Assembly (NCBI GenBank): GCA_027482995.1
Contig: JAIXVM010000159.1
Location: 1-38,374 of the forward strand
Length of the DNA: 38,374 nt
Reading direction: 5' to 3'
DNA from: Hyphomonadaceae bacterium
Lineage (GTDB): Bacteria > Pseudomonadota > Alphaproteobacteria > Caulobacterales > Hyphomonadaceae
This document shows positions 14,938-20,204 of the stretch, in pieces (the first letter of the stretch is position 1; every line of letters starts with the position of its first letter). Both the position numbers and the translations under genes were made by a program. The notes under the pieces are model-generated. The model saw nothing but the letters and a program-made list of their open reading frames with translations. It was not told where the DNA came from and made no database searches.

Positions 14938-16233
14938 ATGCCAAGCGGCGGAATGTGGCGCATCTACGGGCCGGTGATCCTGATTGCTCTGGCGGGGTTC
15001 GTGCTGACCTTGTTCCTGATGGATCCGGCACCGCCGAAGAAAATCCGGTTCGGGGCAGGGGCGCAGGGCGGCGCGTATCATGCCTATGCCGAGCGCTATC
15101 AGCGCCTGCTCGCCGAACAGGGCGTCGAAGTCGAACTCGTCGATACCGCCGGCTCGATCGATAATCTGCGGCTGCTGGAAGACGACTTTCTCGATGTTGC
15201 GCTGGTGCAAGGCGGGCTGTCCGGGGTCACCGAACGCAAGCAGCTGCGCTCGCTCGGCGGCCTGTTCGAGGAGCCGTTCTGGGTCTTCGTCCGGTCTGAT
15301 CTCGCCGTTGACGACTTCGGGGACCTGAAAAACCTGCGCGTCTCGATCGGCCCGGAAGGCTCCGGGACCCGGGCGCTAGCGACCATCCTGCAAACCGAAT
15401 ATGGCGGTGAATGGTCTGACAGCGCCCGCGCCGCCCTGGTCAGCGCCGACGCCGAAGCCGCCCTGCGGAAAGGCGAACTCGACGCGGCGGCTTTCGCGGC
15501 CTCGCCGCAGGCGCCGTACGTCCAGTCGCTATTGCGGGCCGACGGCATCCGGCTGCTGCCGTTCGACCGCGCGGAAGCCATCGCGCGGCGGACCGATGGG
15601 CTGTCCTCTGTCACCCTCCTGCGCGGCATCGCCGATGTCGGCGCCGATATTCCGGCGCGGGATGTGCCGCTGTCCGCCGCCGTCGCCCAGCTGGCCGTGC
15701 GCAGCGACATTCACCCGGCGATCGAAGCGGTGCTGCTCGACGCCGCGACCGCGATCCACGCCGAACGCAGCCTGTTTGCGCCCGCCGGCCGGTTCCCGAA
15801 TGTCCACAACGCCGACTTGCCGGTCAGTTCGCAGACAACGCGGTATTACCGCGATGGCCCGTCCTTCCTGAGACGGTACTTTCCGTTCAGTGTTGCCAAC
15901 TTCCTTGACCGGGCCTGGGTGCTCGCCATTCCGCTGCTGACCCTGGCATTCCCGCTCGTGCGCGCCGCGCCGCCGATCTATCGCTGGCGTGTCCGGCGGC
16001 GGATCTACATCTGGTACAAGGACCTGCGCGCGCTGGAAGATGAAGGCCGCTCGACCCCGCCGGGCGAGCCGCGCGTCTCCGTCATCAGCCGGCTTGAACA
16101 GCTGCAGGCCGATATCGGCCAGCTGGACGTGCCGCTCTCCTACACGGACGACCTTTACCGCCTGCGCGGCCATGTCGAGTTCGTGAAACAATTGCTGCGC
16201 ACGGCGCCGGTCGAGGCGGCGGTGACGGCCTAG
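14938..16233 (+). CDS. TAXI-family TRAP-type solute-binding protein with membrane anchors
   Basis: Protein of 431 residues. An N-terminal hydrophobic segment (about 9-28) serves as signal anchor. The following 280 residues are a TAXI-type periplasmic binding domain (FGAGAQGGAYHAYAERYQRLL, VELVDTAGSIDNLRLLEDDFLDVALVQGG, VSIGPEGSGTRALA). After about residue 320 there is a second hydrophobic segment (AWVLAIPLLTLAFPLV), then a basic, helical, probably cytosolic tail. TAXI proteins normally feed a DctQM-like permease; none is encoded nearby. I chose ATG 14938 because AGGAG lies 10 bp upstream; the ORF-track start at 14911 has no properly spaced site. The upstream gap 14709-14937 holds the rlmH hairpin and a CTGGATCACCTC match to the 16S rRNA 3' end, otherwise nothing clear. 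The stop overlaps that of the convergent LytTR gene in a shared CTAG. Confidence 0.82.
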   Translation: MPSGGMWRIYGPVILIALAGFVLTLFLMDPAPPKKIRFGAGAQGGAYHAYAERYQRLLAEQGVEVELVDTAGSIDNLRLLEDDFLDVALVQGGLSGVTERKQLRSLGGLFEEPFWVFVRSDLAVDDFGDLKNLRVSIGPEGSGTRALATILQTEYGGEWSDSARAALVSADAEAALRKGELDAAAFAASPQAPYVQSLLRADGIRLLPFDRAEAIARRTDGLSSVTLLRGIADVGADIPARDVPLSAAVAQLAVRSDIHPAIEAVLLDAATAIHAERSLFAPAGRFPNVHNADLPVSSQTTRYYRDGPSFLRRYFPFSVANFLDRAWVLAIPLLTLAFPLVRAAPPIYRWRVRRRIYIWYKDLRALEDEGRSTPPGEPRVSVISRLEQLQADIGQLDVPLSYTDDLYRLRGHVEFVKQLLRTAPVEAAVTA

Positions 16234-16982
16234 AGCAGGCCAGCGGCCTTCGCGTCTGCCTGAAATGTCCGCGAGACGGGCGCGAGCTTGCCCGATGGCA
16301 AGACCAGCGAGACGCGGCCGCCCTCGCGTTTGACATCCTGCACCGCTGCCTTGGACACCCACCAGGACCGGTGCACCTGCAAACCGCCAGCGCCGTCCAG
16401 CTCGCGGATCGCATCGGCCAGCCGCATCAGGACAAGTTCTTCCCCGAGATTGGTGTGCACGCGCAGGTAATGGTCTTCCGACGAGATCGCGTGGAGTTCG
16501 GCTTGCCGGAACTTGAGGGGAAGGCGCGCCAGAAAGGCGCGTGTGGCGTCCGGCGCCGTCAGGTCGGACGAGCCCGCCGGCTTCTGTGACGCTAGGGCAA
16601 GGACGTATCCGCCCACCACCATCACGAGGCAGACGGCGAAGACGTAAAGGAACTGGACTGGCAACACCGCGAACGACATCGCCCCGCCCAGCAGGGCCGA
16701 ATAGGCATAAAGCGCGGCGGTGACGGGTACGGCGATCAAGGCTGCACCCGCCGCAATCCGCACCGGCAGCGGCCAGGGCTCGAAGCGGGTGCCGAAGATG
16801 AACGGGATGATGAAGGCGGACGAGGCCGTTCCGGTGCCGATTGTGATCAGCCACATGGAATATCGCAGCCAGAGCGGCCCGGTGACGCCATAAATTCCGA
16901 ACCAGGTGAACACGCCGGCCAGCACGATGACGAGCGCCACGTTCTGCAGCAGGCTTCGCAACTGGGAAGTCACCGGGTTCAC
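16230..16982 (-). CDS. Membrane-bound LytTR-family transcriptional regulator
   Basis: Protein of 250 residues with four predicted N-terminal membrane helices (QNVALVIVLAGVFTWFGIYG; WLITIGTGTASSAFIIPFIFG; a segment around AGAALIAVPVTAALYAYSALL; FLYVFAVCLVMVVGGYVLALA), followed from about residue 150 by a LytTR DNA-binding domain. LytTR hallmarks are ISSEDHYLRVHT, RLADAIRELD, LQVHRSWWVSKAAV and LPSGKLAPVSRTF. It lacks a receiver domain, so the membrane part itself is likely the sensor or tether. It is divergent from a DUF2306 membrane protein gene, and a tandem 11-bp repeat lies between them, so it probably regulates itself and that neighbour. The signal is unknown. Confidence 0.9.
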   Translation of the reverse strand: MNPVTSQLRSLLQNVALVIVLAGVFTWFGIYGVTGPLWLRYSMWLITIGTGTASSAFIIPFIFGTRFEPWPLPVRIAAGAALIAVPVTAALYAYSALLGGAMSFAVLPVQFLYVFAVCLVMVVGGYVLALASQKPAGSSDLTAPDATRAFLARLPLKFRQAELHAISSEDHYLRVHTNLGEELVLMRLADAIRELDGAGGLQVHRSWWVSKAAVQDVKREGGRVSLVLPSGKLAPVSRTFQADAKAAGLL

Positions 16983-17104
16983 CTCTGCATTTGACGCTTC
17001 GCGAACGGTAATGGCGTCATTTCACGAAGGATTCCAGCCGGAACACGTAGTTGCCGTGGCGAGCCGCCCGGCGGCCTGCGAGGACGAACTGGCCGGGCGG
17101 CAAA

Positions 17105-17126
17105 CCGTCCATAACCCGTCCATAAC
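17105..17126. repeat. Exact tandem 11-bp repeat, candidate LytTR binding site
   Basis: CCGTCCATAAC occurs twice back to back, ending 19 bp before the DUF2306 start codon and inside the 163-bp gap shared with the divergent LytTR gene. An 11-bp period places both copies on the same face of the helix, and LytTR regulators bind direct repeats. The use as an operator is inference. Confidence 0.5.
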
Positions 17127-17145
17127 CTCTGGAGAGTCCAAACCC

Positions 17146-17700
17146 ATGACGACCGTTGAAGCCCACCTGTCCGCCCGCCCCCAATTCTCCCTCTGGGCCT
17201 GGCGCAAAGCCAACGTCAACAAGATCAACATCGCGATCGGTACCGTCGCGTTTGGCGTCATCAGCTGGCTGATCCTGCAGCAGATGCCGCCCGTTTATTT
17301 CCGGCTGGACCTGACACCCCTGCTGACGGCGCCCGCCATGGTGCAGGTGCATGTGGCCGCGGCCATCACCGCTTTTAGCGTGGGCTGCATCCTGATGGCG
17401 GGTGTCAAAGGCAACACGATGCACCGGGTGCTCGGCTATGGCTGGGTGGTGGCGATGGCGACCACCGCCATCAGCTCATTCCTGCTGTTCGGCCCGGTCG
17501 GCAGCCATCTCAGCCTCATTCATGCGCTGTCAGCCTGGACACTGATCGTCCTGCCGATGGGCATTGCGGCCGCGCGCGGCGGCAACATCAAGGCGCACCG
17601 CCAGACAATGACCGGCGTGTTCACCGGCGGCATGCTGATCGCGGGCCTGTTCACCTTCCTGCCGGGCCGCCTGATGTGGGACATTTTCTTCACGACCTGA
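17146..17700 (+). CDS. DUF2306-like membrane protein
   Basis: Integral membrane protein of 184 residues of unknown function, with about four helices (INIAIGTVAFGVISWLILQQ; VQVHVAAAITAFSVGCILMAG; VLGYGWVVAMATTAISSFLLFG; the last around GVFTGGMLIAGLFTFLPGR). The pattern of conserved His residues at membrane faces (VQVHVAAA, MHRVLGYGW, SLIHALSAW, KAHRQTM) resembles DUF2306/YozB-like small membrane proteins, in which metal or haem binding has been suspected but not shown to my knowledge. I chose ATG 17146, which has GGAGAG about 9 bp upstream; the longer ORF-track start at 16906 would run through the intergenic region and into the LytTR gene. It is probably controlled by the divergent LytTR protein. 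Confidence 0.75.
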   Translation: MTTVEAHLSARPQFSLWAWRKANVNKINIAIGTVAFGVISWLILQQMPPVYFRLDLTPLLTAPAMVQVHVAAAITAFSVGCILMAGVKGNTMHRVLGYGWVVAMATTAISSFLLFGPVGSHLSLIHALSAWTLIVLPMGIAAARGGNIKAHRQTMTGVFTGGMLIAGLFTFLPGRLMWDIFFTT

Positions 17701-17741
17701 TTTTTAACCAAGCCTTACGGCTGTTGCAGAAGCCCGCTACA

Positions 17742-17775
17742 AGCCTCCTCAACACATCGGGTCGTTGAGGAGGCT
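17742..17775 (+). promoter_or_regulatory. Perfect 12-bp hairpin burying the Shine-Dalgarno of the PhoD-like gene
   Basis: AGCCTCCTCAAC (17742-17753) and GTTGAGGAGGCT (17764-17775) are perfectly complementary with a 10-base loop. The right arm contains the whole Shine-Dalgarno GAGGAGG, and the start codon is 4 bases after the stem (17780). In mRNA this would block initiation unless opened, as in RNA thermometers or protein-relieved riboregulators. It is not a terminator, as no U-tract follows. Confidence 0.7.
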
Positions 17776-17779
17776 AATC

Positions 17780-18949
17780 ATGAAACACATCACGGCAATC
17801 GCGGCGCTGTCGCTGCTTGCAGCCTGTCAGTCACCGGCGGAGATCCCGCTCATCGGCGATGCATTTGCGCCGAAAAGCGCGGAAGACGCCCTCGAGCCAT
17901 ATTACCGCTCGCTGCCGGACGATTTCTTCCCTCATGCGCCGAAAGGTCCTGTGCTTCCGGCGGCCGATACCGTGCTGACGCGCATTCTGGTCGGCTCGTG
18001 CCTCGACGAGGAAAAGGGCGAAAGCACCACGCTGCGGACGATTGCGGCCCAGCAGGCGGATCTGTTCCTGATGATCGGCGACAACGTCTATGGCGACAAG
18101 GACGGGCCCGCCAACATCAACAACCAGCCGGAGCTCGACGAGCTGCGCGCGAGCTTCCGTGATCTTGCGGCGCGCGAAGACTTCAAGGCCGTGCGCGCAA
18201 AGTTTCCGATGATGGTCGCCTGGGACGATCATGATTACGGCGCCAATGATGCTGGCAGGGGCTTTGTTTTCAAGCGGCTCGCCGAGCGCATCCATGAGCG
18301 CTTCTGGGGCCTCGATGACAAGGATGTCGGCGCCTATCCGGGCACCTATTATGCGCGCACGTTCGGCCCGGAAGGCCAGCGCACGCAGGTGATCGTACTC
18401 GACACGCGTTTTTTCCGGTCGAACCTGACGCCGACCGACGAATGGAACAAGAAAGGCAAGGAACGCTACATCCCCTCCGCCGATCCCGAGCAGGACATGC
18501 TGGGCAACGACCAGTGGACCTGGCTGGAAAACCGGCTGCAGGACCCGGCCGATGTGCGCCTGATCGTCTCCTCGATCCAGGTGCTGACCACGGACGGTCA
18601 TGGCTTTGAGGCCTGGTCCACGCTGCCGAAAGAACAGGCGCGGCTTTATAATCTTGTCCGCGAAACCGAGGCCAAGGGCGTTGTGTTCGTCTCGGGCGAT
18701 CGCCACACGGCCTTCCTCTACAAGGACGAGGCGGCGCTGCCTTACCCGGCCTTTGAACTCACGGCCTCGTCGATGAACCTGTCGTTTGCCGAAACCACGA
18801 CCGAGATGGACAAGGCGCAGCTCGGCGAAGGCTATCCGCCCGAGAATTTCGGCGCCATCGGCATCGACTGGGCGGCCGGAACGGTCAGCCTTGAGGTCAA
18901 GTCCAACACCGGCGAGACGGTCCGGCAGGCCACCACCTCGTTCCGCTGA
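17780..18949 (+). CDS. PhoD-like metallophosphatase lipoprotein
   Basis: Exported phosphoesterase of the alkaline phosphatase D family, 389 residues. The signal peptide ends in a lipobox LAAC with Cys16, so it should be a lipoprotein rather than the Tat-exported form typical of PhoD. Metal-site motifs are ILVGSCLDEE, LFLMIGDNVYGD, MVAWDDHDYGANDAG and VFVSGDRHTAF. The later segment YPAFELTASSMN also fits the family. Family members hydrolyse phosphomonoesters or diesters with Fe/Ca centres; the substrate here is not known. I chose ATG 17780 over the ORF-track start because GAGGAGG lies 6 bp upstream. That site is enclosed in a perfect 12-bp hairpin. An MFS gene begins 13 bp after the stop. Confidence 0.9.
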   Translation: MKHITAIAALSLLAACQSPAEIPLIGDAFAPKSAEDALEPYYRSLPDDFFPHAPKGPVLPAADTVLTRILVGSCLDEEKGESTTLRTIAAQQADLFLMIGDNVYGDKDGPANINNQPELDELRASFRDLAAREDFKAVRAKFPMMVAWDDHDYGANDAGRGFVFKRLAERIHERFWGLDDKDVGAYPGTYYARTFGPEGQRTQVIVLDTRFFRSNLTPTDEWNKKGKERYIPSADPEQDMLGNDQWTWLENRLQDPADVRLIVSSIQVLTTDGHGFEAWSTLPKEQARLYNLVRETEAKGVVFVSGDRHTAFLYKDEAALPYPAFELTASSMNLSFAETTTEMDKAQLGEGYPPENFGAIGIDWAAGTVSLEVKSNTGETVRQATTSFR

Positions 18950-18962
18950 ACCCGCAACGCCG

Positions 18963-20204
18963 ATGTCGGGTTACCGGAATGTGATCACGCTGATCTTCGC
19001 GATCTGCCTCATGCAGGCGGCGGCGAGTTTTCTTGGCGTGATCACACCGGTCGGGCTGACCGAACTCGAGGCCGGCGAAGCGCTCACCGGACTGATCGGT
19101 GCCATTTACTCGGCGGGTTTCATGGCCGGCGCCTGGGCCGGGCCGGCCTTGCTCGGCCGTTATGGCACCATCCGGCTCTACGCGGCGGCGGCGGCGATCA
19201 CCGCGGTTTGCGCGCTGGCGATGGGCATGGTGCCGGGCATTGCCGCCTGGGGCGCGGCGCGCGTGATGCAGGGTATCGGCTTCGGCCTGCTGTTCGCCAG
19301 TGCCGAAAGCTGGCTCGGTCACGCTGCGCCGAACGACCGGCGCGGCGACATCATGGGGTTTTATTACTTCCTGTCCCGCATTGCCGGCATGCTCGCCCCG
19401 TTCCTCGCCTTCGGACTGTCCGCGCTCGATCCGCGCGGGCTTAGCTGGGTGTCGATCCTGCTCTGCCTGTCGCTCGTCACGCTCTGCCTGACACGGCAGG
19501 AGGAACCGGCACCGCCGGCCCGCGAGGTCATGAACCCGGTGGATCTTTTCCGGCTCGCCCCGTCGGCGGTCACAGGGTGTTTCCTGGCCGGTCTGCTCAA
19601 CACAGGCACGCTGGCCCTGCTGCCAACGTGGACCAGCACGTTTGCGATTGCGGGCGGTGGCACCGCCGCTGCGGCCTGGGCGGCGGCAGCGGCAGCGGGC
19701 GGCGCGCTGCTCGTGCAATGGCCGGCCGGGCGGATCTCCGACCGGGTGGAGCGGCGCATCGTGGTCGCGGTGCTGTCCCTGTTCTCGGGCGCTGCGGCGC
19801 TCGCCCTCGCGGCCGGCGGCACGCGGTTCAGCGAGCCGGCAGTGCTCGCCTTGCTGTGCCTGTGGGGGGCAGGGGCGTTTGCCTTTTACGGCGTGTGCGC
19901 CGCCCATGCGATTGACCGCGGCGGCCCGGGCCGGATTCCCCAGGTGATGAGCGGTATCCTGTTCATCTGGGCGGCGGGGTCGGTGATCGGTCCGGTGCTG
20001 TCGGGCATCGCGATGAGCCTCGGCGGGCCGCAGGCCCTTTTCGGGGTCGCCGCGTTCGGTCTTTTCCTGCTGGCCGGCATCATGCTGGTGCGCAGCCGCG
20101 TGCGCCCGGCGCCTGTGCCGATGGCCTCCGAAGGCTTCATGCCCGCGGAGGCGACATCCTCCACATTGGCCAATCCCGACGCGCGGCAGGCTGGGCAAAC
20201 ATGA
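18963..20204 (+). CDS. MFS transporter (YcaD-like)
   Basis: Major facilitator permease of 413 residues with about 12 membrane helices. The N-terminal half shows GLIGAIYSAGFMAGAWAGP, RVMQGIGFGLLFASAESWL and a basic loop NDRRGDIMG; the ASAESWL segment is characteristic of the YcaD-like group. The second half begins near PVDLFRLAPSAVTGCF. The C-terminal 30 residues are hydrophilic. The start ATG 18963 is 13 bp after the PhoD-like stop with no clear Shine-Dalgarno, so its translation may depend on the upstream gene. The ORF-track start at 18786 reads through the phosphatase gene and is not credible. Substrate unknown; co-location with a phosphatase could mean uptake of the released product, but that is a guess. 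Confidence 0.87.
   Translation: MSGYRNVITLIFAICLMQAAASFLGVITPVGLTELEAGEALTGLIGAIYSAGFMAGAWAGPALLGRYGTIRLYAAAAAITAVCALAMGMVPGIAAWGAARVMQGIGFGLLFASAESWLGHAAPNDRRGDIMGFYYFLSRIAGMLAPFLAFGLSALDPRGLSWVSILLCLSLVTLCLTRQEEPAPPAREVMNPVDLFRLAPSAVTGCFLAGLLNTGTLALLPTWTSTFAIAGGGTAAAAWAAAAAAGGALLVQWPAGRISDRVERRIVVAVLSLFSGAAALALAAGGTRFSEPAVLALLCLWGAGAFAFYGVCAAHAIDRGGPGRIPQVMSGILFIWAAGSVIGPVLSGIAMSLGGPQALFGVAAFGLFLLAGIMLVRSRVRPAPVPMASEGFMPAEATSSTLANPDARQAGQT

Follow-up and report, generated by a model that had tools for sequence, protein, structure and literature searches.

In IS10/Tn10, the transposase start site is hidden in read-through RNA but not in RNA made from the internal promoter. RNA thermometers (ROSE, fourU) have stems that are imperfect and weak, opening at about 30–42°C. 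In bacteriophage T4, long transcripts of gene e (lysozyme) and I-TevI that are initiated upstream bury the Shine-Dalgarno (SD) sequence in a hairpin, and a promoter within the DNA for the 5′ strand of this hairpin gives transcripts which lack that strand and are translated; the repression measured for gene e was 100-fold (PMC3014915). A hairpin in Bacillus subtilis sigG has been proposed to block translation of RNA reading through from the upstream operon, and this hairpin is unable to form in RNA made from the gene's own promoter (PMC5942855). Silencing of read-through by a hairpin arm placed in the promoter is known but rarely described, the documented cases being a few genes of phages, of transposons and of sporulation.

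We analyzed a hairpin at the ribosome binding site of a phoD-like gene in a stretch of 38,374 nucleotides (the window) from a marine bacterium, whose draft genome was assigned to Hyphomonas on the basis of its relatives. Features of the locus are listed in Table 1. The gene order in the window is LytTR (−), DUF2306-like (+), phoD-like (+) and MFS transporter (+), and this order, including DUF2306–phoD–MFS, was kept across Hyphomonas and also in part of Henriciella. The LytTR gene is divergent from the DUF2306 gene (16230–17700) and the pair is kept in Hyphomonas; the two genes may represent a LytTR-type regulator/membrane-protein pair. In one relative (L048:1790–1985), a deletion took most of the LytTR and DUF2306 genes just upstream of phoD. 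The gap between the DUF2306 and phoD-like genes of the window is 79 nt, and the region 16900–19000, including this gap, showed no terminator-like site on the plus strand.

Table 1. Coordinates of features at the phoD-like locus (positions in the window).
Feature	Positions	Strand	Remarks
LytTR-domain gene	16230–16982	−	Divergent from the DUF2306-like gene
DUF2306-like membrane protein gene, co-directional, upstream, presumed source of read-through	17146–17700	+	PF10067 match slightly under curated cut-off
Predicted −35 element CTTACG	17714–17719	+	TTA essentially invariant across the genus
CTGTTGC, position of second PhoB-like half-site	17721–17727	+	Degenerate in the window; sister species have CTGTCGC, related genera CTGTCAC/GTCAT repeats
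Predicted −10 element GCTACA	17736–17741	+	Matches GCTANA of Caulobacter sigma73 consensus GCTANAWC
Left (anti-SD) arm AGCCTCCTCAAC	17742–17753	+	Adjoins predicted −10 element; predicted start site within
Predicted transcription start	17748–17751	+	Inferred from the Caulobacter spacing, in which the −35 motif begins at −34 to −37 (PMC4287350)
Loop ACATCGGGTC	17754–17763	+	10 nt
Right arm GTTGAGGAGGCT	17764–17775	+	Holds SD core GGAGG (17769–17773)
PhoD-like phosphatase gene (controlled gene)	17780–18949	+	389 aa; PF09423, E 9e-26

The hairpin is a perfect 12-bp inverted repeat at 17742–17775, with 12 uninterrupted Watson-Crick pairs and a 10-nt loop. As the original prediction had stated, its right arm is the SD region (GAGGAGG), followed by AATC and the ATG at 17780, i.e., a spacing of 4 nt. 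The hairpin by itself folded at −22.0 kcal/mol and the surrounding 131-nt region at −47.4 kcal/mol (z = −3.1; 1 of 200 shuffles was equally good). The predicted probability that the SD is unpaired was 0.00 for window RNA with both arms, in agreement with the claim that the SD is buried: the stem would hide the SD of any mRNA that carries both arms. The claim that this is not a terminator also held, as the GC-rich stem plus U-tract of an intrinsic terminator was not found at this site, where AATCATG directly follows the stem. The inverted repeat occurred only once in the 3.0-Mb genome, and an SD-covering stem of at least 12 bp was seen in one other of 175 clear-SD genes, where it was terminator-like; this background set comprised approximately 840 kb of Hyphomonas DNA from three congeners and the window, with genes called by a rough home-made gene caller. 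A chance origin of the hairpin is unlikely. In particular, chance complementarity or a decayed terminator fixed in one lineage would be in line with the fully paired SD of approximately 6% of background genes and with a terminator-like hairpin in the same gap of several Henriciella species; however, both the perfect 12-bp stem and its recurrence with changed letters in several lineages (see below) make this explanation most improbable.

Orthologues of the phoD-like gene were identified in 40 of 42 genus genomes and 78 of 101 sampled family genomes, and the 40 upstream regions of the genus were compared. A promoter-like element, CTTAC-N17-GCTACA, was conserved genus-wide, with 16 nt from CTTACN (or TTTAAA) to the G of GCTACA in 39 of 40 orthologues, and the distance from GCTACA to ATG varied from 35 to 44 nt. 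Clade-weighted information reached approximately 2 bits at TTA in the first box, at TA in the second box and at a single A between them, and dropped to approximately 0.1 bit directly after the second box, past +6; the leader downstream of the boxes was without conservation. For the main sigma factor of Caulobacter, the published −10 consensus is GCTANAWC (PMC8144410), and 93% of Caulobacter RpoD motifs begin 34–37 nt before the start (PMC4287350). With this spacing applied to the window, the predicted start falls inside the left arm. The assignment of the boxes as a putative promoter is based on conservation and spacing, because the −35-like box is a poor match to TTGACG and neither GCTANA nor TTGAC/CTTAC pairs were enriched upstream of genes generally (with crude gene calls); a literature search yielded no Hyphomonas start-site or transcript data. 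Since the left arm overlaps the promoter-like element, it may be missing from the gene's own mRNA.

This placement bears on the proposal that the hairpin acts as a switch within the 5′ UTR of the phoD-like gene, which found no support in our analysis: the predicted start lies inside the left arm of the window, a position that the original prediction had itself named as contrary to its reading, and in other lineages the arm lies between the boxes. Two specific versions of this proposal, a thermometer and a ligand switch, fared no better. The stem stayed closed from 10 to 80°C in silico (probability of an unpaired SD 0.000 at 10–60°C and 0.004 at 80°C), and no Rfam family reached threshold, with only two sub-threshold, chance-level matches to known riboswitch or leader families, both on the opposite strand. 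A regulated leader switch, in which transcription starts upstream of the left arm and the full hairpin in the gene's own mRNA is opened by some factor such as a protein, a helicase or a small RNA, would account for a very strong stem exactly on the SD and for recurrent occlusion in the genus, but the position of the left arm at or between conserved promoter boxes, the lack of conservation in the leader, the lack of an Rfam match and a stem too stable for a thermometer all make it unlikely.

Folding of two RNAs for each orthologue, a read-through RNA and a start-site RNA (beginning 12–15 nt after the G of GCTACA), gave a mean predicted probability of an unpaired SD of 0.20 versus 0.53, with the higher value for the start-site RNA in 33 of 40 cases. 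In the window, truncation at the predicted start lifted SD exposure from 0.00 to about 0.7; predicted exposure was 0.01 with the 5′ end at 17744, 0.65 at 17748 and 0.76 at 17750. Comparable truncation of 174 control genes (cut at −30) changed the median only slightly, from 0.36 to 0.40; 6% of these genes were below 0.01 and only 2 of 174 went from <0.01 to >0.4. In several relatives the SD was still partly paired in the shortened RNA (0.2–0.4).

Taken together, we consider it probable that this hairpin upstream of the phoD-like gene serves to silence read-through. A promoter belonging to the phoD-like gene itself would lie in the gap that follows DUF2306, and the anti-SD arm would be encoded within the promoter/start-site region. 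mRNA from this promoter, without all or a decisive part of the arm, would be translatable, and mRNA reading through from DUF2306 would contain both arms, fold and have its SD hidden. The phosphatase would then be produced only upon firing of its own promoter. Because half of the hairpin lies within the predicted own promoter, it most likely blocks only the read-through mRNA. Alternatively, phoD may be mainly the second gene of a DUF2306–phoD mRNA, with the hairpin constitutively damping its translation or coupling it to that of DUF2306. Co-directional genes with a short gap, a conserved order and no terminator-like site between them would suit such an arrangement, but in the window 41 nt separate the end of the DUF2306 stop codon from the left arm, which is beyond the footprint of a terminating ribosome, and the gap contains conserved promoter-like boxes. 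We regard damping or coupling as quite unlikely.

SD pairing was compared across Hyphomonas, where the SD was predicted to be fully paired (probability unpaired <0.02) in the read-through RNA of 24 of 40 orthologues; in the remaining 16 (most of clades C, D and E) it was not fully sealed. Arm sequences and positions differed among lineages while SD occlusion stayed. Counted from the first base of GCTACA, the anti-SD core occupied +7 to +14 in clade A, which comprises the window and nine others, as well as in the polymorpha-type clade N. Clade B and L069 (a member of clade C) had it between the boxes, at −8 to −16. In each of these lineages it was at or upstream of the predicted start. The arm of clade B and L069, being between the promoter boxes, would therefore be wholly missing from the gene's own mRNA. 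For example, CCCCTCCAAAGACC pairs with GGTCTTTTGGAGGGG in L052, CTGCCCTCCCCAAAG with CTTTGGAGGAGGGCAG in L056, and CTGCCCTGCCGAAA with TTTCGGAGGGCAG in L065, and letters changed with pairing kept between B2 and B3 (CCCTCTCCAAA/TTTGGAGGAGGG versus CCCTGCCGAAA/TTTCGGAGGG). Clade B pairing was read from individual folds, as the MAFFT alignment mis-registers right arms. Pairing was kept through sequence change across relatives, but formal covariation within clade A was slight, with one two-sided pair switching A-U/G-C. In most members of clade A and nearly all of clade B, native pairing was better than every cross-clade arm swap. Shuffling of the anti-SD arm gave significant results for most of A1, B and some of C, and results that were not significant for A2, N, D and E (the N-clade arm is clipped by the region limits); pair counts in clade C were no better than shuffles. 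In L048, which has lost most of DUF2306, the hairpin is kept with one mismatch that is absent from its three closest relatives. This mismatch after DUF2306 loss is suggestive, although L045 also has a stem mismatch with DUF2306 intact. Support is phylogenetically uneven and independent origins are few.

The same comparison is relevant to a DNA-level explanation, in which a transcription factor binds the inverted repeat as a promoter dyad and folding of the RNA is incidental. The repeat does overlap the promoter boxes, and palindromes surround the −10 region in Henriciella too. However, a single protein needs one motif, whereas the arms here vary in sequence by lineage, shift in position and contain small bulges in some lineages, and the right arm tracks the SD; an operator is thus very unlikely.

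With regard to phosphate, a phosphate-linked switch in the RNA was not supported, and the link, if any, would be transcriptional, through a PhoB-like box that is seen in related genera and is weak in the window. Compared with a PhoB box (tandem 11-bp CTGTCAT-like repeats at −35), L182–L187 of the related genera showed 11 of 14 matches (p about 0.01 or less); clade A had a single half-site, CTGTCGC, only, and the window had 7 of 14 matches, not above shuffles. In L181–L187, PhoB box-like GTCAT/GTCAC repeats stand in tandem at an 11-bp spacing, 55–70 nt upstream of the phoD-like start. In Hyphomonas, one half-site of the PhoB-like repeats is left in clades A and N, and the repeats are lost in B and C. 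CTGTCGC/CTGTCAC repeats were also present upstream of a pstS-like gene in clade A species; in searches for the pstS gene, family TIGR00975 was absent and the TIGR02136 matches, upstream of which these repeats lie, were below cut-off. Because the half-site resembles the repeats at the pstS-like gene and at phoD of related genera, an ancestral PhoB-type promoter for phoD is plausible. Where the half-site is kept (clades A and N) the arm is downstream of the −10 box, and where it is lost (B and C) the arm is in the spacer; arm placement is consistent with a constraint imposed by the half-site. If the promoter is of PhoB type, silencing of read-through would make biological sense, keeping an exported phosphatase off at plentiful phosphate despite a transcribed neighbor.

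Related arrangements were seen elsewhere. In a Henriciella group (L169, L171–L174 and L180), the SD AAAGG pairs with the −35 region, 20–24 nt upstream of GCATAA and upstream of the predicted start. In these and in L085–L088, the whole phoD-like promoter region is one extended imperfect palindrome, CCCTTTATCTAT...GACGCCC-GCATAA-GGGCGTC...ATAGTGAAAGGG, with the −35 region pairing with the SD. Besides, terminator-like hairpins with a T-run occur directly before a start codon at L119:11123–12178 (minus strand; G020:C14 about 191123–192178; GCCTCCCG..CGGGAGGCTTTTTC-ATG) and at L143:9808–11091 (minus strand; G019:C1 about 269808–271091; CCCTCCG..CGGAGGGTTTTTTC-ATG), the latter a gene which we take to encode an RtcB-like RNA ligase. 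In both, the next gene has its SD in the 3′ arm, which it makes up, and therefore terminator and SD occlusion coincide. It is conceivable, though doubtful, that promoter-embedded anti-SD arms are a general and repeatedly re-evolved means of translation-level insulation from neighbor read-through in Hyphomonadaceae, by way of non-homologous arms (−10/+1, −35/−10 spacer or −35 box) or of terminators in which the SD of the following gene serves as 3′ arm. A genus-wide chromosomal case with a moving arm and kept SD pairing would suggest that transcriptional leak from a neighbor is a real selective pressure. It would also give a simple sequence test for more cases, in which start-site maps are searched for an anti-SD that coincides with the start or precedes it.

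Compared with known systems, the window resembles an RNA thermometer in that the SD is buried in a hairpin, and differs in that its stem remains closed to 80°C in silico. It would share with IS10/Tn10 the protection from external promoters, but IS10/Tn10 is a mobile element and no transposase is involved in the window. In T4 gene e and I-TevI, too, the SD is buried in upstream-initiated mRNA and the gene's own promoter (predicted in the window) is at the 5′ arm; the T4 cases involve phage early/late timing, a phage sigma factor and measured repression, whereas the window has a chromosomal phosphatase and a promoter deduced from sequence. sigG is likewise a chromosomal gene with the same proposed read-through logic, but it has a hairpin of 20+ bp under sporulation control, whereas that of the window is 12 bp long and belongs to an alphaproteobacterium. 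Also different from sigG is that, in Hyphomonas, the arm is found within the promoter spacer or immediately ahead of the predicted start and is re-sited between lineages.
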